A stretch of 64,000 nt of DNA, taken from Flavobacterium sp. N2820. Its GTDB lineage: Bacteria > Bacteroidota > Bacteroidia > Flavobacteriales > Flavobacteriaceae. This document shows positions 8,535-15,447 of the stretch, one piece after another (the stretch's first letter is position 1; every line of letters begins with the position of its first letter). The stretch covers positions 1,751,001 through 1,815,000 of the forward strand of contig NZ_CP110008.1 of the NCBI RefSeq assembly GCF_025947285.1, written 5' to 3'. A program made the position numbers and the translations under genes. The notes beneath the pieces were generated by a model that saw only the letters and a list, made by a program, of their open reading frames with translations, had not been told where the DNA came from and did no database searches.

Positions 8535-9059
8535 TTACTTTTTGCTTTTCATATAAGCTTCTACATCAAACGGTACGGGCACAAATGTATACCACAGAAT
8601 TAGAAAGTCCATAGCCAGCGTTCGATGTGCCGCATACCATTTATTGATACGCACCTTATCGGGCCAGATGACCTCATCGTTGTATTGTTTTGGATTGGGT
8701 TGTTGCGCTAAAAGTTGTTCTTCGTTGCGGTATTTTAAAGAAGCTAAACCGGTAATTCCTGGTTTGAGCGTCAGCACAATGCGGTCATCTCCTTCCAGTT
8801 GGTCTGCATATCCTGGGACATCTGGTCTGGGACCTACTAGCGCCATTTCGCCTTTGAGAATGTTATAAAGTTGTGGGATTTCGTCTAACTTGGAGTTGCG
8901 AAGGAATTTTCCCCATGCGTTAGGTGTTGAAGCTCCCTTTGGAATACTCCGAAGCTTATAAATCGTAAAGGGAATCCCATTTTTACCAATGCGCGTTTGG
9001 GTAAATAACATCTGTTCTAATTGAATAACAAATATAGCAATTAATTGATTGCATTTCAA
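8535..9059 (-). CDS. N-terminally truncated sugar transferase (WcaJ/PglC-type catalytic domain)
   Basis: 174 residues as drawn. The catalytic part of a polyprenyl-phosphate sugar-1-phosphate transferase is intact: [40 protein letters not shown] and LKPGITG. Families of this type start with about 35 residues containing a membrane re-entrant helix (for example the neighbour at 14845-15447); here that part is missing and replaced by MKCNQLIAIFVIQLEQ, unlike the family. Upstream the sequence runs straight into the palindromic intergenic repeats at 9151, suggesting a recombination or deletion breakpoint. A possible promoter (CAA at 9057-9059 and CAAATATA at 9029-9036 on the plus strand) points to an ATG at 9011 instead, giving about 158 residues. 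Probably non-functional; could also be a soluble remnant. Confidence 0.75.
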   Translation of the reverse strand: MKCNQLIAIFVIQLEQMLFTQTRIGKNGIPFTIYKLRSIPKGASTPNAWGKFLRNSKLDEIPQLYNILKGEMALVGPRPDVPGYADQLEGDDRIVLTLKPGITGLASLKYRNEEQLLAQQPNPKQYNDEVIWPDKVRINKWYAAHRTLAMDFLILWYTFVPVPFDVEAYMKSKK

Positions 9060-9150
9060 TAGTGGTTTCTAGTGCTTCAACCGTCGCTGAGTTAATGCAT
9101 CAATGAGTCGATGGAATATTAAGTGGCATAGTACAACATAATTCCAACAC

Positions 9151-9303
9151 CGTCGCTTCGAGTATTTTTTATAAAATGGCCGTAGCTATTTTGTGAAAAA
9201 TGTATTGAGAACAACTGAAAATAAAACGTTACTATAGTTCTCGATACAATTTTACAAAGCAAAAATTAGCATTTTTTCTTTATAAAATCACTCGAAATGA
9301 CGA
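9151..9303 (+). repeat. Large palindromic intergenic repeat, full copy (R1)
   Basis: Full-length member of a dispersed family. The outer ends are inverted (CGTCGCTTCGAG / CTCGAAATGACG) and an inner inverted pair (TATTGAGAAC / GTTCTCGATA) flanks the sequence AACTGAAAATAAAACGTT. Both arms carry ATAAAAT-type stretches. Confidence 0.75.
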
Positions 9304-9332
9304 CAGGGTTGTGCAAAGTAAAATTCCAACAC

Positions 9333-9460
9333 CGTCACTTCTGTATTTTTTATAAAGTTGCAGTAGCTATTTTGTGAAAAATGTATTGAGAACTACTGAA
9401 AATATATCGTTGCTATAGTTCTCGATACAGTTTTATAGTTCAAAAACTAAGGTTTTATAG
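9333..9460 (+). repeat. Large palindromic intergenic repeat, variant copy (R2)
   Basis: Same left arm and centre as R1, but the right arm is a variant (TTTTATAGTTCAAAAACTAA, then GGTTTTATAGG) and the outer CACTCGAA end is missing. The same variant right arm recurs in R8. Confidence 0.65.
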
Positions 9461-9576
9461 GGATTGTTTTTGTTTTGTAAATTACAAAGGGCTCACCGTT
9501 TCTACCTATACGGTTTTGTTTGAATAGCATATTTTACTTAAAGAATAAAGATTTTCAAATATAGCAAATTTCATTT

Positions 9577-9891
9577 CTAATGTGTAGGTGCGCTAAAAGA
9601 ATACCCTGAGGAGATGGGTTTTTCTTTACATTGCATATCTGAAACAACTAAAACTTTAGACTTATCTGATTGTTCATTCTTGTCTTTATTTTTTTTTGTC
9701 TCATTTTCTAAAATAATGGAAACAATAGATTCTTTGCTTACACCATAATAGTCACAAAAATCTTCAATTGTTATCGGCTGGTAGTGTTTTTTACCTAATT
9801 CTTTTCTAATGGATCTTATCATTTTGAAGCTCATGCTTTCTTTTTTTCCAAAATAAACTTGGATGTCTATGGCTTTTATAACTTGTCTCAT
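9577..9891 (-). CDS. Small conserved Bacteroidota protein with HTH-like centre, function unknown
   Basis: 104 residues. The central part (YFGKKESMSFKMIRSIRKE, then HYQPITIEDFCDYYGVSKE) reads like a helix-turn-helix or tandem helical DNA-binding fold that recurs in small flavobacterial proteins. The C-terminal 40 residues are lysine- and serine-rich and probably disordered. A possible minus-strand -7 element (TAATTTTG, plus-strand CAAAATTA at 9913-9920) precedes it. It lies downstream of the equally orphan 11024-9984 gene in a repeat-rich island. No function can be assigned. Confidence 0.6.
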   Translation of the reverse strand: MRQVIKAIDIQVYFGKKESMSFKMIRSIRKELGKKHYQPITIEDFCDYYGVSKESIVSIILENETKKNKDKNEQSDKSKVLVVSDMQCKEKPISSGYSFSAPTH

Positions 9892-9983
9892 TTCTTATAC
9901 TTTTATTTGAAGCAAAATTATTTATGGCTTATATGAATATGCATTACTTTTTTATAGTTATTACACTACAAATTTGTAGTTTT

Positions 9984-11024
9984 TTAGATACTCTTTTCTT
10001 TTATTAATTTGTAAAAATTATACTTTTGAGTTTGTCCTTTAATTCTATCATATGTTTTAATTGGATTCTTGAGTTCTATTTTATTACCTGATTCTTCATT
10101 AAACCAAGTTCTAAATGTTGTTTCTTTTGCAATAATTAATCTAGGGATTTCTTTTTCACTCATTTGGCGGAAATAAAATCCAATTTCTTCTTGGTTCTTT
10201 GCATGTGATACTAGTTTTTGAAATAACTCATAAGCACTATAATCTTTAAATATGTGCGTTGGAAAAGTGGTCGTATTATTTTTTGTTTTTTGTTTTGTAA
10301 TTGTAGTAATTTCAGAATCGTTACTGCATACTAATTTTTCTATTTTAAGAATCAATTTCTTGAAGAAGGTTTCAATTAATTGGAAATAAAGTGAATCTGT
10401 ATTTGCAAATGCTTTAAAATCATAATAAAAAGCCTTGATTCCTTTATACAACAATGTTATGTATTTTTCGTATTTATGCTGATTAATAAGTTTAAGTGCA
10501 ATATTATCGGTAAAAAAATCCATTCCTATTCTGTTCATTTCTTTTTCACAAAGTTGATCTATTACATATTCTTCAAATTCAATTGTGTATTGTAACACAA
10601 GATTCACTAATGAACTAGTTAACTCATTTACGAACGTTTTAATTTTAGTGTTTTCTATTCCTTGTTCTTCTGCTTCTTTTTTTAGTTGATTGGTAATACT
10701 TTTAATTGGATAGGTCTTTATTTTAAAGAGCATGTCATTCAAATCTTGTGCTCTTGTATTTAAAGAACTTAGGTATGATTCTAAATTTAATGGTGCTTTT
10801 TTTAGATGGTTTTTGCAGGTATTTTGAATTTCTTGAATTTCAGCTGTGAAATGACCAATACCTATTGTACCTGTTTTTATTTTTACTTTTTTAGTTTCTG
10901 CAATTATAACCTCTTGAACAATACTGGATAAAGATTTCATTAGATCAGACATTCTAATTGAAATTAAATCAAATGGAATTTCATCTTTTGGATTGGAGCT
11001 TTTTTCTTTTTTACTAGTAATCAT
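9984..11024 (-). CDS. Uncharacterised helical protein of an accessory island
   Basis: 346 residues from the ATG at 11024 (MITSKKEKSS). A longer frame from 11051 is unlikely because a good promoter -7 box lies at 11049-11056. The protein is lysine- and isoleucine-rich and mostly predicted helical, with no signal peptide or membrane segment. The C-terminal about 80 residues (FYFRQMSEKEIPRLI, TTFRTWFNEESGNK, KTYDRIKGQTQKYNFYKLI) look like a compact small domain that may recur in other Bacteroidota hypotheticals. Not recognised by function. It neighbours 11-bp tandem repeats upstream and a small HTH-like gene downstream. Confidence 0.65.
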   Translation of the reverse strand: MITSKKEKSSNPKDEIPFDLISIRMSDLMKSLSSIVQEVIIAETKKVKIKTGTIGIGHFTAEIQEIQNTCKNHLKKAPLNLESYLSSLNTRAQDLNDMLFKIKTYPIKSITNQLKKEAEEQGIENTKIKTFVNELTSSLVNLVLQYTIEFEEYVIDQLCEKEMNRIGMDFFTDNIALKLINQHKYEKYITLLYKGIKAFYYDFKAFANTDSLYFQLIETFFKKLILKIEKLVCSNDSEITTITKQKTKNNTTTFPTHIFKDYSAYELFQKLVSHAKNQEEIGFYFRQMSEKEIPRLIIAKETTFRTWFNEESGNKIELKNPIKTYDRIKGQTQKYNFYKLIKEKSI

Positions 11025-11048
11025 CGTTTTACATATAATTATTTGACG

Positions 11049-11078
11049 CAAAATTATCTGAAAATGCTATCTAAACAA
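11049..11078 (-). promoter_or_regulatory. Bacteroidota-type promoter of the 346-residue orphan gene
   Basis: On the minus strand, TTG (complement of CAA 11076-11078), 19 nt, then TAATTTTG (complement of 11049-11056). Spacing and both boxes fit the consensus. It places transcription start near 11043, supporting translation from ATG 11024. Confidence 0.7.
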
Positions 11079-11170
11079 AGATAACTGGTTTAAAATTAAA
11101 GTAAGTTTTCAACAAAATTGTTGATCAATAAATTTAGTTTTTATTATCTAGTTTATTTATGATATACCAT

Positions 11171-11224
11171 AAGTATCCCGTACTTATCCCGTACTTATCC
11201 CCTAAGTATCCCGTAAGTATCCTC
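11171..11224. repeat. Five 11-bp tandem repeats (iteron-like)
   Basis: Units AAGTATCCCGT, ACTTATCCCGT, ACTTATCCCCT, AAGTATCCCGT and AAGTATCCTCA run head to tail. The core TATCCC is constant and the period of 11 bp is about one helical turn, so a protein would meet all copies on one DNA face. They lie roughly 100 bp upstream of the orphan gene's promoter. Confidence 0.75.
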
Positions 11225-11340
11225 AAAGATGTTGTGAAGGGGTTTCTATTCGTTTGACAATATCTTTTATTATGAGAACATCGTTTGTACGAGAGAGGCG
11301 ACAGTATGACCAACTGTGTGGGGAGTCTTTGTTTAATTGT

Positions 11341-11690
11341 TTTCAGTTGAAATTAGCTACACCCCTGAAGACCTTCCGAAGTGAAGTAACAGGCACTCAA
11401 GGGGACAATCCTGCTATAGAATTGTTGTTTTTTAAGATTTCAGTTGAAGAATTTTACACCCCTAAAGTCCCCTCAAGGGGACAATCCTACGATTGAATTT
11501 TATATTTTTAAGTTTTCCAGTTGGACTTCTTTACACCTCTAAAGTCCTTCCGAAGTGTCGGAACAGGCACTCAAGAGGACAGTACTTCTAAGGTACTTTG
11601 ATTTATATGAGTTTCAGTTGAGCATAAATTTCACTCCTAAAATACTTCCGAAGGGTCGGAACAGGCGCTTGAGGGGACAATCGTTATAAA
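11341..11690. repeat. Cluster of DUF559-associated hairpin repeats (left cluster)
   Basis: Four forward copies of a module: A 11341-11418 (long), B 11456-11490 (short), C 11515-11585 (long) and D 11611-11683 (long). Each runs from a CAGTTG-type start, through ACACCCCTAAAGTCC, to CAAGGGGACAATCC. The short form has the hairpin GTCCCCTcaAGGGGAC; the long form replaces its left arm with a TTCCGAagtgTCGGAA hairpin plus CAGGCACTC. No gene is supported in this stretch. Confidence 0.75.
11456..11583. repeat. 128-bp direct repeat, left copy
   Basis: Matches 12233-12360 at 126 of 128 positions with an offset of exactly 777 bp; differences are near 11490 and near 11576. It covers modules B and C. The DUF559 gene lies between the two copies. 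Confidence 0.85.
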
Positions 11691-11771
11691 GACTATTGAC
11701 TTTTAATAATTTTAAAGACGATAATTTCGAATTATGATTATACTACTAATAAATAAATGGTGAAGCTAGGA

Positions 11772-11803
11772 ATTGTCCCCTTGAGGGGACTTTAGGGGTG
11801 TTA
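11772..11803 (-). repeat. Left terminal inverted repeat of the DUF559 unit
   Basis: Inverted relative to all neighbouring modules. It starts 10 nt beyond the DUF559 stop codon and could also act as its transcription terminator, since CCCCTTGAGGGG-type pairing forms a hairpin. Confidence 0.8.
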
Positions 11804-11812
11804 CCGATTCTT

Positions 11813-12181
11813 TTATTTATCAATCAATTCTTGAACAACTTGTTCTAATGTCATACCAACCGAAAACATATTGTGTTTTATTTCTAAATCTGTAAATCGT
11901 AAAAAAACAACACCTTCTTCTTCTAATTCACCTTGACGCTTATTATCATAGTCATACTTGAATAAATGACTGTCCCCATCGATTTCAATGGCTAACATTA
12001 ATTCATGACAATAAAAATCTACGATGTACTCTAACATTGGTACTTGCCTGTGAAATTGAACGCCTAGCGCTTTATTTTTAATGTTTTTCCATAATAAGAC
12101 TTCGCTTAGTGTGCTGTTTTTTCGAAGTTCTCTAGCGTATTCTTTTAGTTTTGGATTATAGGGAATGATTTTGTTTTTCAT
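11813..12181 (-). CDS. DUF559-domain endonuclease-like protein (Vsr-type PD-(D/E)XK fold)
   Basis: 122 residues from the ATG at 12181 (MKNKIIPYNP); a start at 12202 is possible but adds non-family residues. The DUF559 pattern is clear: LRKNSTLSEVLLW near residue 20-31, FHRQVPMLEYIVDFYC (Asp55), LAIEIDGDSH (Glu66, Asp68, His72) and VVFLRFTDLEI near 91-101. These residues match the Vsr-like restriction-endonuclease-fold active site, so metal-dependent DNA cleavage or nicking is expected, although the family's true role is unknown. The gene is bracketed by a 32-bp inverted repeat and a 128-bp direct repeat, and related hairpin repeats crowd both sides, which suggests that the protein acts on or spreads with those repeats. 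Confidence 0.88.
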   Translation of the reverse strand: MKNKIIPYNPKLKEYARELRKNSTLSEVLLWKNIKNKALGVQFHRQVPMLEYIVDFYCHELMLAIEIDGDSHLFKYDYDNKRQGELEEEGVVFLRFTDLEIKHNMFSVGMTLEQVVQELIDK

Positions 12182-12230
12182 TTTTAAAAAGTAGCTATAC
12201 AAATATATTATATTTATTCAAGAAACTCCC

Positions 12231-12262
12231 TAACACCCCTAAAGTCCCCTCAAGGGGACAAT
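12231..12262 (+). repeat. Right terminal inverted repeat of the DUF559 unit
   Basis: Perfect inverted match to 11772-11803, about 50 nt upstream of the DUF559 start codon. It also forms the left edge of the second 128-bp direct repeat. Confidence 0.8.
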
Positions 12263-12360
12263 CCTGCGATTGAATTTTATATTTTTAAGTTTTCCAGTTG
12301 GACTTCTTTACACCTCTAAAGTCCTTCCGAAGTGTCGGAACAGGCACTCAAGGGGACAGT
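12233..12360. repeat. 128-bp direct repeat, right copy
   Basis: Second copy of 11456-11583 (two mismatches). Covers one short and one long hairpin module. Confidence 0.85.
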
Positions 12361-12570
12361 CCTGCGATTGAAGTATTTGTTGTTTTATGTTTCAGTTGAA
12401 ATTAGCTACACCCCTCAAGTCCTTCCGAAGTGTCGGAACAGGCACTCAAGGGGACAATCCTGCGGTTGAAGTATTTGTTGTTTTATGTTTCAGTTGAAAT
12501 TAGCTACACCCCTCAAGTCCTTCCGAAGGGTTGGAACAAGTGTTCGAGGGGACAATCCTGCTATAGAACT
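12292..12570. repeat. DUF559-associated hairpin repeats, right cluster
   Basis: Three further long-form modules: G 12292-12370, H 12389-12466 and I 12487-12570. H and I are tandem with a 98-bp period (AAGTATTTGTTG at 12371 and 12469). The last copy ends CCTGCTATAGAAC like the first copy A of the left cluster. From 12570 to 12917 the sequence is AT-rich with no gene I can support. Confidence 0.7.
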
Positions 12571-12917
12571 ATTGCTTTTTGGGTTTTCAGGTGCTATTTT
12601 CTACACTCTACTGTAATTTTTACACTCTACTCTATTTTTCTTGGTTCTACAGCATTATTTTTTATTTTAAAGTATTGCAATACAATACCTTACACTATTT
12701 ATACCCTTTTTTTTGAGGTGCTTTTTTATGCTTTAGTTTTGGGGTGTTGAAAGGCAAAATTGGATGGCCAACGGTTTTGATTTCGACACAAAAAAATTTT
12801 TATAATGAACTTATATTTTAGAATGGAAACGGGGTTTCAGAAATCGCGTTCCGCAGCAAGAGGATCAAAAAGAAGTAACAACTTCAATGTATTAATTTTA
12901 ACTAAAAACAAGTAGTC

Positions 12918-13667
12918 ATGGCAAAATTTGATGGAATTTTTGAGATTAAAGGAACTTTACAGGGCATGTCATTTTACAAATCGAAAGATGGTATGATGAT
13001 TCGAAAAAAGGGTGGTATTGACAAAAGTCGCATTAAAAACGACCCTGCTTTTCAACGTACCCGTGAGAATGGTACTGAATTTGCCCACAATGCAAAAATG
13101 GGACAATTGATTCGAAAATCGGTCGCTAATTTATTGTCACTAGCTAAGGATTATCGCGTAAGTAGTCGAATGTCGCAAGCGATGAGTAGAGTTAAGAATT
13201 TAGATCTTGACTCGCCACGAGGAGCGCGCAAAGTATGGATTGGAATTGTTAACCCTGAAGCGAAACAATCGCTCCGTGGTTTTGATTTTAATTTGAATTC
13301 GCCTTTTAATTCTGTTTTCAGAGCCCAATATACATTAGATACCGCTACTGGTGTTGTAAGTATTTTAGGTTTTAATCCCGCCACTAATTTGAGTATTCCT
13401 CAAGGCGCTACTCATGCTAGTTTAAGTGTTGCTGTTTCCAATGTGGACTTCCAATTGGATAATTATGGTACTACTTACAGTCCAAAAGAAAATTTTGCTT
13501 TAGTAGATGGCTCTGTAGATTTGACACTCACTCCAACGGGGATGCCTGGAGGCACTGGCAGTACTTTTTTCTATTTCTTGATTGAGTTTTTTCAAGAAAT
13601 GAATGGATTGCAGTACCCCTTAAAAAACAACTCGCATAATGTGTTGTATTTGATGGAGGTGGTTTAA
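12918..13667 (+). CDS. Orphan Bacteroidota family protein (MAKFDGIFEIKG type), function unknown
   Basis: 249 residues. The N-terminal half is rich in basic residues and conserved-looking motifs (GIFEIKGTLQGMSFYKSKDG, MIRKKGG, DPAFQRTRENG, SVANLLSLAKDYRVSSRMSQ) that resemble a family found repeatedly in Bacteroidota, often alone. The C-terminal half is beta-rich (ASLSVAVSNVDFQLDN). No signal peptide or membrane helix is seen. It is followed by a good terminator and stands alone between repeat clusters, so it appears to be a one-gene cargo. I do not assign a function; a phage or surface-structure origin is only a guess. Confidence 0.75.
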   Translation: MAKFDGIFEIKGTLQGMSFYKSKDGMMIRKKGGIDKSRIKNDPAFQRTRENGTEFAHNAKMGQLIRKSVANLLSLAKDYRVSSRMSQAMSRVKNLDLDSPRGARKVWIGIVNPEAKQSLRGFDFNLNSPFNSVFRAQYTLDTATGVVSILGFNPATNLSIPQGATHASLSVAVSNVDFQLDNYGTTYSPKENFALVDGSVDLTLTPTGMPGGTGSTFFYFLIEFFQEMNGLQYPLKNNSHNVLYLMEVV

Positions 13668-13712
13668 ACTTTTCACTTAAAGGCTCTCCAATAGAGAACA
13701 GATTAGTTTTAG

Positions 13713-13743
13713 AAGTCCGTATCGTTAGGTACGGACTTTTTTT
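13713..13743 (+). terminator. Rho-independent terminator after the orphan family gene
   Basis: AAGTCCGTA and TACGGACTT form a 9-bp stem around an 8-nt loop, followed by five T. Confidence 0.9.
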
Positions 13744-13853
13744 GAATAGCAGTTTTGAAAACCTTTACCAATACTGAGTTAATGTGTCAATGAGCCAATA
13801 AATCAATGAGTCAATGGGAAATTAAGTGGTATAAAACTATATAATTCCACTAT

Positions 13854-14005
13854 CGTCACTTCGAGTATTTTTTATAAAATTGCCTTAGCTATTTTGTGAA
13901 AATTGTATCGAGAACTATTGAAAATAAAACGTTGCTAGAGTTCTCGATACAATTTTATAGTTCAAAAATTAGCATTTTTTCTTTATAAAATCACTCGAAT
14001 TGACG
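13854..14005 (+). repeat. Large palindromic intergenic repeat, full copy (R3)
   Basis: Full copy closely matching R1: outer CGTCACTTCGAG / CTCGAATTGACG and inner TATCGAGAACT / AGTTCTCGATA. It is preceded by a TCAATGAG-rich stretch (13788-13850) also found before R1. Confidence 0.75.
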
Positions 14006-14049
14006 ATAGGGTTGTACAAAGTAAAAAGTACAAAGTAAAAATCCACCAC

Positions 14050-14185
14050 CGTCACTTCGAGTGTTTTTTTATAAAATTGCCTTAGCTATTTTGTGAAAAA
14101 TGTATCGAGAACTATTGAAAATAAAACGTTGCTAGAGTTCTCGATACATTTTTATATTTCAAAAACTTTACATCGAAAAGAATGA
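14050..14185 (+). repeat. Large palindromic intergenic repeat (R4)
   Basis: Left arm and centre nearly identical to R3; the right arm is shortened and degenerate, ending CATCGAAAAGAATGAC. Confidence 0.7.
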
Positions 14186-14186
14186 C

Positions 14187-14210
14187 AAAAAAAATCCGCA
14201 CAAGGCGGAT
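14187..14210 (-). terminator. Terminator of the polysaccharide operon
   Basis: ATCCGC / GCGGAT stem with a short loop; on the minus strand it is followed by a T run. It lies just after the acetyltransferase stop, the last gene of the long minus-strand operon. Confidence 0.7.
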
Positions 14211-14235
14211 ACATTTTATCATGTGAATTAAAAGT

Positions 14236-14844
14236 TTAATGAAATTTAATGGATTTAGCCGGAATACCGACAGCGGTACAATGATTTGGGATATCTTGTG
14301 TAACTACCGCACCCGCTCCTATTGTTGACCACAAACCAATACAAACAGACTGTATAATAGTAGCATTAATACCTACATGAGTGCCTTCTTTAATTTCAAC
14401 GCCTCCTGCTAGAGAAGCTTTTGGTGAAATATGCACATAATCATGTACTACACAATCGTGTTCTACAACAGCAGCTGTATTTATGATGCAGTTTTTACCA
14501 ATACTGACCGCTGCGTTTACAACTGCATTCGGCATAATAACTGTTCCATTACCTATGGATGCACTTGGAGAAATTATAGCACTAGGATGCACTAAGGGAG
14601 GCGCTAAATTCAATTTAAACTTGTCATGAATCGCTTTCCTTACTTTATTGTCGCCTATGCTTATGATGATGGGATTAGCATTTAAAAGTTCAAGATTGTA
14701 AACCGAATGGACTTTTCTACCCATAAAATTTTCCACTTTGGTATTATCATCAAATATATACCCCACCTCAAAACCATTGCACTCAATGATATCGATGATG
14801 ACTTTAGCGTGTCCGCTTGCACCAAAAAGATTAATCTTTCTCAT
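14236..14844 (-). CDS. PglD/NeuD-like sugar O/N-acetyltransferase
   Basis: 202 residues with a Rossmann-like N-terminal domain (INLFGASGHAKVIIDII, residues 3-20) that binds the UDP-amino sugar, and a left-handed beta-helix of hexapeptide repeats from about residue 85 (HPSAIISPSASIGNGTVIMP). The catalytic histidine region is VVEHDCVVHDYVHISP near 125, as in PglD. It would acetylate the 4-amino group of a UDP-linked amino sugar. The stop codon of the preceding sugar transferase directly abuts this ATG, so the two are translationally linked as in pgl-type loci. The matching aminotransferase is displaced to 2410-3549. Confidence 0.88.
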   Translation of the reverse strand: MRKINLFGASGHAKVIIDIIECNGFEVGYIFDDNTKVENFMGRKVHSVYNLELLNANPIIISIGDNKVRKAIHDKFKLNLAPPLVHPSAIISPSASIGNGTVIMPNAVVNAAVSIGKNCIINTAAVVEHDCVVHDYVHISPKASLAGGVEIKEGTHVGINATIIQSVCIGLWSTIGAGAVVTQDIPNHCTAVGIPAKSIKFH

Positions 14845-15447
14845 TTAATTTCCTTCAAATTTTGTGGTTGTTGCTTGTCCAGTTTGACTGATTCCTTCTG
14901 AAACAAACACTTTTTTAATCGTTAAAAATATAATTTTTAAATCCAATAAGAAACTTTGGTTTTCCACATAGTAGACATCTAATGTAAACTTATCTTCCCA
15001 AGAAATGGCATTTCTACCATTTATCTGTGCCCAACCTGTTATGCCTGGCTTTACGTGGTGTCTTCTTTTTTGGGTTTCATTGTATAACGATAAATATTCC
15101 ACTAACAAAGGCCTAGGGCCAATTATACTCATATCCCCTTTCAAAACATTAAACAATTGCGGGATTTCATCTAAAGAAGTTTTACGCACCAATGCCCCTA
15201 TTTTAGTTAAACGCTCCGCATCCGACAATAAATTACCAGCGGTATCTTTTTTATCGTTCATGGTTTTGAACTTTATGATAGTGAAGATGGTACCGTTTTT
15301 ACCTGGTCTTGGTTGCAAAAAGAAAGGCTTTCCTTGATTGGCAAAAAATAAACCTACAATAACTAGAATAAATAACGGACTTAGCAGCATCAAACCTACT
15401 AATGCTACTATAAAATCGAAGAGGCGTTTAAGATAATTTTTGTACAT
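14845..15447 (-). CDS. PglC-like initiating sugar-1-phosphate transferase
   Basis: 200 residues, the size of minimal monotopic phosphoglycosyl transferases. An N-terminal re-entrant membrane helix ([17 protein letters not shown], about 11-27) is followed by [38 protein letters not shown] and [15 protein letters not shown]. It transfers a sugar phosphate, probably diNAc-bacillosamine or related, from UDP to undecaprenyl phosphate, starting the repeat unit on the inner membrane's cytoplasmic face. The C-terminal tail ends in TKFEGN. It is coupled to the acetyltransferase downstream and lies 7 nt after the GT4 gene upstream. Compare the truncated paralogue at 8535. Confidence 0.92.

Follow-up and report, generated by a model that had tools for sequence, protein, structure and literature searches.

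The DUF559 unit and its ends

The window analyzed here is a 64,000-bp stretch of Flavobacterium sp. N2820 (contig NZ_CP110008.1, positions 1,751,001 to 1,815,000). It contains a short unit in which a DUF559 gene lies between two inverted, hairpin-bearing ends. The gene (11813..12181, minus strand) starts with an ATG at 12181, has its stop codon at 11813-11815, and encodes a putative Vsr-like endonuclease of 122 aa. The left end (11772..11803, plus strand) reads ATT, the hairpin GTCCCCT(TG)AGGGGAC at 11775-11790, TTT, the inward tag AGGGGTGT, and TA. The right end (12231..12262, minus strand) is identical over 32 nt, with its hairpin at 12244-12259 and its tag toward the gene. The two form a perfect 32-bp inverted match, and a repeat finder reports a 43-nt, 88% inverted pair that contains both. 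The DUF559 gene is the only listed open reading frame (ORF) of at least 60 aa between the ends. No DDE, HUH, or serine/tyrosine transposase is among the listed ORFs there. The Y1_Tnp domain (PF01797) was not found in the window genome, which is a single contig and 99.99% complete. An earlier sequence-only reading of this DNA had described a lone 122-residue gene, perfect 32-bp inverted ends each with its own hairpin, and no known transposase, and the coordinates and ORF list agree with it on each count.

The left end folds as DNA at -5.6 kcal/mol (z of -2.06), and the right end has a z of -1.85. Within the window, the hairpin form occurs only at 11467, 11775, and 12244. Shuffled sequences contained 0.27 on average (up to three mismatches), and 0 of 100 shuffles reached three. 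At up to two mismatches, these three are the sole matches in the 3.06-Mb genome. Terminator prediction called neither end a terminator, and Rfam gave only sub-threshold matches at 9000-15000 of the window. The genome has one further DUF559 domain, in an 848-aa reading frame without ends.

Gene-less relatives of the ends lie on both sides of the gene, as had been claimed. One is a perfect copy with tag then hairpin (11456..11485, minus strand; 100% complementary to 11772-11801), and, together with the left end, it makes up an inverted pair whose tags point outward. It falls within a stretch of degenerate copies (11341..11684, minus strand; 60 to 67% to reference copies) whose hairpins are interrupted by TTCCGAAG..-like inserts. 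Further degenerate copies lie to the right (12331..12606, minus strand; 66 to 80% to reference copies) at a 98-bp spacing. Degenerate copies on both sides share a longer, interrupted hairpin and mostly the same spacing. Some ends of loci L071, L048, L014, and L008 carry a longer insert, TTGAGGATTATTGAG...GAGCGTAGCTC, that replaces or extends the hairpin ahead of the same tag and is comparable to these interrupted hairpins.

Linkage of DUF559 genes with hairpin-tag ends

One genome per species was scanned for 84,980 species. This gave 172 stretches encoding a relative, and the best 80 of the 172 were kept, representing 79 distinct loci. A strict detector required a perfect stem of at least 5 pairs containing CCCC, followed by a G-tag, toward the gene and within 350 bp. 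It was built after inspection of the ends, so the controls matter. Across 86 loci (the 79, six of the genus, and the window), it found an end 5' of the gene in 54, 3' in 56, and on both sides in 42. The corresponding counts for 272 random positions in those loci were 2, 2, and 0.

The sequence-only reading had proposed a check of whether related DUF559 genes carry such ends, and would have been refuted by genes lacking them at the same frequency. At 46% identity or more, 98 of 114 loci have an end within 350 bp in either orientation, and 63 have ends on both sides. Tags point inward on both sides in 52 loci, from 29 flank clusters. Counted by flank cluster, 50 of 61 contexts have an end and 35 have ends on both sides in either orientation; the 61 is an upper estimate because short contigs may split clusters. 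Distant relatives (below 46% identity) are rarely linked, with an end in 3 of 35 and ends on both sides in 0 of 35, a set that includes loci of other phyla with differently built ends, and the detector sees Bacteroidota-type ends only.

The same gradient was present among the 59 loci of the genus and family. DUF559 domains in long ORFs have an end in 0 of 11 cases. Small DUF559 proteins below 46% identity have one in 2 of 14 (both sides, 0), those at 46 to 60% in 10 of 12 (both sides, 4), and those at 60% or more in 16 of 22 (both sides, 9). Several loci scored without an end have visibly decayed ends. The plasmid and phage collections yielded only relatives below 60% identity. Two loci, L043 (3001-3363) and L167, have an in-frame stop in the DUF559 gene and are likely decayed units.

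The ends are also polar. Among 149 loci including controls, the nearest ends on the two sides both have inward tags in 52 and both have outward tags in 4. Away from genes, the prevailing arrangement is tag-out with the hairpins inside, seen in 40 of 68 neighboring pairs within 200 bp, and 18 of the 40 have 91 to 101 bp between them; these polarity and pair counts include near-duplicate loci. At L169, the gene is adjoined by three near-identical dimers.

End classes and the protein tree

The ends fall into classes. Class F has the stem TCCCCT..AGGGGA and the tag AGGGGTGT, which it shares with class I (CCCCTCT..AGAGGGG). Class B has CCCCCTT..AAGGGGG with the tag GGGGATGT, and class P has CCCCTCC..GGAGGGG with the tag AGGGGTGG. 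A fifth class, G, is rarer. The two ends of one locus belong to the same class in 53 cases and to different classes in 7.

Stem pairing is kept across classes. In 132 ends, 919 of 924 stem cells are paired (G-T allowed), a count favored by the choice of ends for likeness to a class consensus. At least two Watson-Crick types occur at 5 of the 7 stem pairs, and the variation is mostly between classes. Within classes, both bases of a pair had changed with pairing kept in 8 cases, a single change left the pair intact in 10, and pairing was broken in 5.

In a phylogeny of 110 proteins, the classes cluster. Explaining the class labels takes 22 changes, against a shuffle mean of 56.4, and 0 of 200 shuffles were as low; the tree is built on few columns and its forks are weak. 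Class P lies on one side of a branch (support 88/52) with members from the Planctomycetota, Fidelibacterota, Reichenbachiellaceae, and two genomes of the window's family. Class I lies on one side of another branch (89/77), and two genomes from the genus of the window are among its members. Other units in that genus have F ends (the window and G027) or B ends (G023 and G067), and F and B each need several changes on the tree. The P and I branches cross phyla or families and one genus holds several classes; therefore, the class of the ends at the gene tends to follow the protein and not the host.

Dispersed gene-less copies

The F pattern was found in 32 of 299 genomes of the window's family, B in 14, and I in 11. 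Reversed-pattern controls gave 0 matches in the same 299 genomes. The highest copy numbers were 101 (G133), 27 (G177), and 26 (G233), ends at the gene included. A linked DUF559 was taken from the search table as a match with an E value of 1e-43 or less, or of 1e-22 to 1e-43 in a short frame. At least one class occurs in 29 of 45 genomes with a linked DUF559 and in 23 of 254 others (Fisher p of 3e-15). Close homologues (E value of 1e-43 or less) are patchy, occurring in 21 of the 299, and the F pattern is found in 15 of these 21 and in 17 of 278 others (p of 3e-12). Both comparisons count the ends at the gene itself, and the genomes are related.

The smallest shared unit is the hairpin plus tag, of about 30 nt. 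The 13 fetched copies from G177 (of 27) share a slightly varying sequence of about 30 nt, ATTGTCCCCTTGAGGGGACNTTAGGGGTGT, and the 12 fetched from G133 (of 101) share the class I core. Shared flanks extend further in some of these copies. None of the 25 is spanned by an open frame longer than 120 aa, and no DUF559 gene is there.

Some copies lie in larger arrangements. Class I singletons of G133 at L257, L258, and L262 lie mid-way in a larger imperfect inverted repeat (TTATCACGTTT...AAACGTGATAA). G233 has clustered F-class hairpins at C1:218817-219267, four of them at about 141-bp spacing. In this genome, 26 F matches are reverse and 0 are forward, by the strand of its contigs.

Presence and absence at syntenic sites

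Hairpins and units are present at some sites and missing from the same sites in relatives. Two genes directly adjoin, the stop of one meeting the start of the other, in L019, L020, L021, and L188, of which L188 and L020 appear to come from a single species. At the same junction, L008 has a spacer of about 60 bp and L014 one of about 110 bp, and each spacer contains one AATTGTCCCCTTGAGGGGACTTTAGGGGTGT. A gene-bearing unit lies before rnpA in ten loci from Muricauda, Croceitalea, Maribacter, and related lineages. L199 and L201 have the upstream gene of these loci joined to rnpA with neither unit nor hairpin. These two came from a family-wide rnpA search, and of six rnpA loci viewed, they alone show that upstream gene.

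Genome G133 was compared with its sister G358 (101 versus 2 copies; 90% identity at one locus). In the compared stretches, 4 of 11 G133 hairpins had an orthologous site, and G358 lacks the hairpin at all four alignable sites. A clean insertion was looked for at these sites and rejected, as the spacer differs throughout. Insertion and replacement are indistinguishable here because the intergenic DNA differs otherwise.

Target-site duplication, which the sequence-only reading had proposed to look for in filled and empty sites, was not clear in any of 54 units. Abutting 2-, 3-, 4-, and 5-mers number 4, 5, 6, and 0 against 1.8, 6.8, 3.4, and 0 expected, a comparison blurred by conserved bases beside the stem. 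The mean best direct repeat is 2.65, and shuffles have a mean of 2.3 and a maximum of 2.83.

Several units are read in frame with a neighbor. In ten loci (L023, L024, L032, L038, L041, L047, L012, L016, L025, and L039), the DUF559 ORF continues in frame into rnpA. The read-through crosses the 3' end, often reading TPLKSPQGDN, and the usual rnpA start appears replaced. Another common site, thrDH, is occupied in L006, L007, L008, L010, L011, L014, L019, L020, L021, and L162. Translation of L006, L008, and L011 shows DUF559 in frame into a threonine-dehydratase-like pyridoxal phosphate enzyme. In L069, L072, and L074 (Scalindua/Brocadiaceae), an hsdR-like ORF contains, in frame, a DUF559 unit along with several palindromes. 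These palindromes encode repeated peptides, e.g., TPGPSQEGN, and the L072 frame ends early.

The protein

The window protein matches PF04480 (DUF559) with an E value of 6.3e-27 and 94 bits (cut-off, 20.6). Residues E27, D55, E66, D68, H72, and D79 are invariant across 49 aligned family sequences, E. coli YcjD included. The active-site residues named earlier (Asp55, Glu66, and Asp68) are therefore retained in this putative nuclease. In the fold search, the AlphaFold model matched 3HRL, the structure of N. gonorrhoeae NGO0050, and to a lesser degree Vsr; the predicted fold is thus like those of a homing endonuclease and of Vsr. The Vsr match by itself tells little because mitoribosomal proteins score alike in the fold search. 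The gene is under purifying selection (median dN/dS of 0.22; 67 pairs).

Distant relatives on plasmids and in E. coli

Distant DUF559 genes were found at 20 plasmid loci (20 of 36 records), and 8 of these have flanking inverted repeats that score above 30 base shuffles. The scores are 53 for Deinococcus psychrotolerans, 47 for D. proteolyticus, and 40 for Pseudanabaena. Of the 8, a Neisseria gonorrhoeae locus exceeds its shuffles by a single point, and L242 lies within a very long DUF559 ORF. On three Deinococcus plasmids (L235, L237, and L239), DUF559 occupies differing positions in the same hpa gene cluster.

E. coli YcjD is a distant relative, 37% identical to the window protein. A hairpin and tag, CCCCTCGCCCCTCTGGGGAGAGGG TTAGGGTGAGGGG, starts 166 bp after the ycjD stop (L332, 2310-2346). 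This element occurs at 79,720 places in 5375 of 5426 E. coli genomes (median of 16; range of 1 to 29), and the ycjD region (at least 80% of the query) is present in 3361 of the 5426. Strains differ at the ypfG-tkt site: where KE48 has the hairpin, MG1655 and AR_0058 have another repeat, and the flanks are identical between KE48 and AR_0058. An empty ycjD site was also sought. Three genomes without the region carry an efflux operon after sapF, which is no simple empty site.

Other repeats in the window

A separate repeat family lies at 9083-9456 and 13786-14175 of the window, as direct repeats of 241 bp (86%) whose inverted arms are about 58 nt long. These stand on either side of the 9.4- to 13.8-kb stretch that contains the DUF559 unit, and the pair could be the borders of a larger mobile stretch. 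An 11-bp-spaced tandem repeat (TATCCCGTACT-like) is present in four copies at 11163-11222, between a 355-aa ORF and the hairpin array.

Interpretation and alternatives

These observations suggest that the DUF559 gene and its matching hairpins form a minimal mobile DNA system, not described before, whose enzyme and hairpins move together. The unit is probably a minimal selfish or domesticated element that resembles a REPtron, i.e., a nuclease gene with its repetitive extragenic palindromic (REP) sequences, with an unrelated Vsr-type nuclease. As we infer it, a Vsr-like PD-(D/E)XK nuclease would recognize its own hairpin plus G-tag, either in a folded single strand (e.g., on the lagging strand) or in a cruciform. 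It would bind and then nick or cut beside the hairpin, and replication or repair would set copies elsewhere. The gene-bearing form usually has its hairpins outside and its tags toward the gene. Gene-less singletons of 30 to 35 nt and tag-out dimers of about 150 bp would spread in trans. The sequence-only reading had expected a nuclease-driven unit with non-autonomous derivatives, and it is supported. Most of the checks that it proposed favor it, the dispersed gene-less copies fit the derivatives, and the nuclease itself would drive the movement.

Several observations weigh against this reading. G256 has 15 copies without a DUF559 match at an E value of 1e-10, and G267 has 9 with only a distant match. 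F-class copies occur in G080, G081, and G090, all without a close gene. The units of G023 and G067 have B ends, yet both genomes carry F-class copies elsewhere. For the gene-bearing unit, no site separates insertion from deletion base by base.

Such hairpin-bearing genomes without a close or class-matched DUF559 would be expected if another enzyme, an IS200-type HUH transposase, a REP-associated tyrosine transposase (RAYT), or other, spread REP-like hairpins and DUF559 was a passenger caught between two such hairpins. A link between REP palindromes and RAYTs is described for other systems in PMC3733652, and RAYT subclass 2.1 is described in part of PMC6006769 as flanked by inverted repeats with the consensus GGGG[AT][CG]A[CG]. 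Of the 20 genomes with a close DUF559, 13 hold some Y1_Tnp match. The other 7, the window genome and six of the 19 others, have none, although in one of the six (G259) no ends were detected. None of the 272 random positions was enclosed, whereas the DUF559 family has ends in 50 of its 61 contexts, with classes clustering by clade. Among the matches listed for G000, G144, and G183, tag-in pairs 300 to 700 bp apart enclose DUF559. We consider a passenger unlikely. It is also quite unlikely that the unit is a homing or recombination cassette, in which the nuclease breaks DNA at pre-existing hairpins, host recombination copies the gene in, and the hairpins are targets more than mobile ends. Single gene-less hairpins occupy sites that are hairpin-free in relatives, so the hairpin itself seems to spread, and at the rnpA site both readable relatives lack a hairpin.

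Purifying selection and the rnpA and thrDH sites, common to ten loci each, would suit a host-useful nuclease that repairs or polices cruciforms or mismatches and is kept beside its substrate, with the repeats spread by slippage or recombination. A Caulobacter DUF559 protein has likewise been proposed to work in mismatch repair, according to the part of PMC12907096 consulted. We find this very improbable in view of the patchy presence (21 of 299), the up to 61 contexts, and classes that cluster by protein across phyla. Stable inverted hairpins on both sides of a gene could also be terminators or RNA stabilizers, but neither end is called a terminator, the fetched dispersed copies are without a gene, and 9000-15000 of the window has no above-threshold Rfam match. 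A transcriptional role is thus highly improbable.

The reading of a REPtron-like mobile unit may extend beyond the window's clade. The C-rich-hairpin/G-tag palindromes of the Bacteroidota, Planctomycetota, Cyanobacteriota, Deinococcota, and E. coli would then be progeny of DUF559/YcjD, a second REP class of independent origin, and these nucleases would mobilize the palindromes by way of folded DNA, with no transposase and no target duplication. The model case would be ycjD of E. coli with its dispersed hairpins, about 16 in number. This proposal is tentative and rather doubtful. The extension beyond the Bacteroidota is the weaker part, as the E. coli element was seen on just one side of ycjD.

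Comparison with known systems

Vsr repairs T:G mismatches. I-Bth0305I and other Vsr-fold homing endonucleases carry an EDxHD motif, and I-Bth0305I is tied to an intervening sequence. The DUF559 unit differs from these in its hairpin ends; no intron or intein was noticed around it, in analyses that included no search aimed at introns or inteins. Vsr of E. coli has its (D/E)XK half-motif replaced by FXH, as the consulted part of PMC1189080 states, whereas the window protein keeps E66-x-D68.

The unit shares inverted ends and gene-less derivatives with pairs of insertion sequences (IS) and miniature inverted-repeat transposable elements (MITEs). Unlike them, it has no transposase gene, no clear target duplication in the 54 units, and ends that are themselves hairpins. 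It is not an IS because there is no transposase gene between the ends. The ends look more like REP palindromes than like transposon ends. Of the two analogies in the sequence-only reading, RAYT/REP is apt, and IS/MITE is less fitting given the lack of a clear target duplication and the hairpin-plus-tag size of the smallest unit. Rickettsia palindromic elements are in-frame intragenic palindromes. The palindromes of the DUF559 unit, read in frame in host ORFs (TPLKSPQGDN), are like them, and the nuclease gene inside the unit sets it apart.

Searches of the open-licence PubMed Central literature, which leave absence from print unproven, found no paper that pairs DUF559 with inverted repeats or that joins Vsr with REP and Bacteroidetes. 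There, six core hairpin sequences matched only under a title unrelated to the topic, and one cyanobacterial hairpin core was unmatched. A word search of the RepRanger paper (PMC12306157) gave no hit for endonuclease.

Repeats of the REP-like palindrome kind are common in bacteria. A survey from 2013, in the portion consulted, names the GTAG super-family as the sole REP group tied to an enzyme, reports CGTC-tagged REPs without a dedicated transposase, and asks whether untagged palindromes have specific protein partners (PMC3733652). The DUF559 ends are REP-like palindromes as well; they differ from these in sequence, and a cognate enzyme is proposed for them. REPtrons, as far as the consulted parts of PMC8266576 and PMC3733652 describe them, have a short palindrome that carries an unpaired tag and occurs singly or as inverted dimers, a nuclease gene between its own palindromes, and co-evolution of enzyme and palindrome. 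The DUF559 system has tagged palindromes, dispersed gene-less singletons, inverted dimers, a flanked nuclease gene, and co-evolution. Its enzyme is PD-(D/E)XK/Vsr-like by prediction, whereas that of REPtrons is HUH (Y1_Tnp), and its tag is AGGGGTG(T/G) or GGGGATGT instead of GTAG (or CGTC). The unit would work like a REPtron, yet it is not one because its enzyme is not HUH and its tag is not GTAG. We regard the kind as new because it lacks these defining features of REPtrons and the transposase of insertion sequences; its layout converges on a known one. Linkage, polarity, and co-evolution tie DUF559, a widespread family of "unknown function," to its own palindromes across phyla. If the reading is true, DUF559 gains a function, and one 122-aa gene in less than 500 bp is a very small candidate self-spreading unit in which a PD-(D/E)XK enzyme fills the role that HUH enzymes have in REPtrons.
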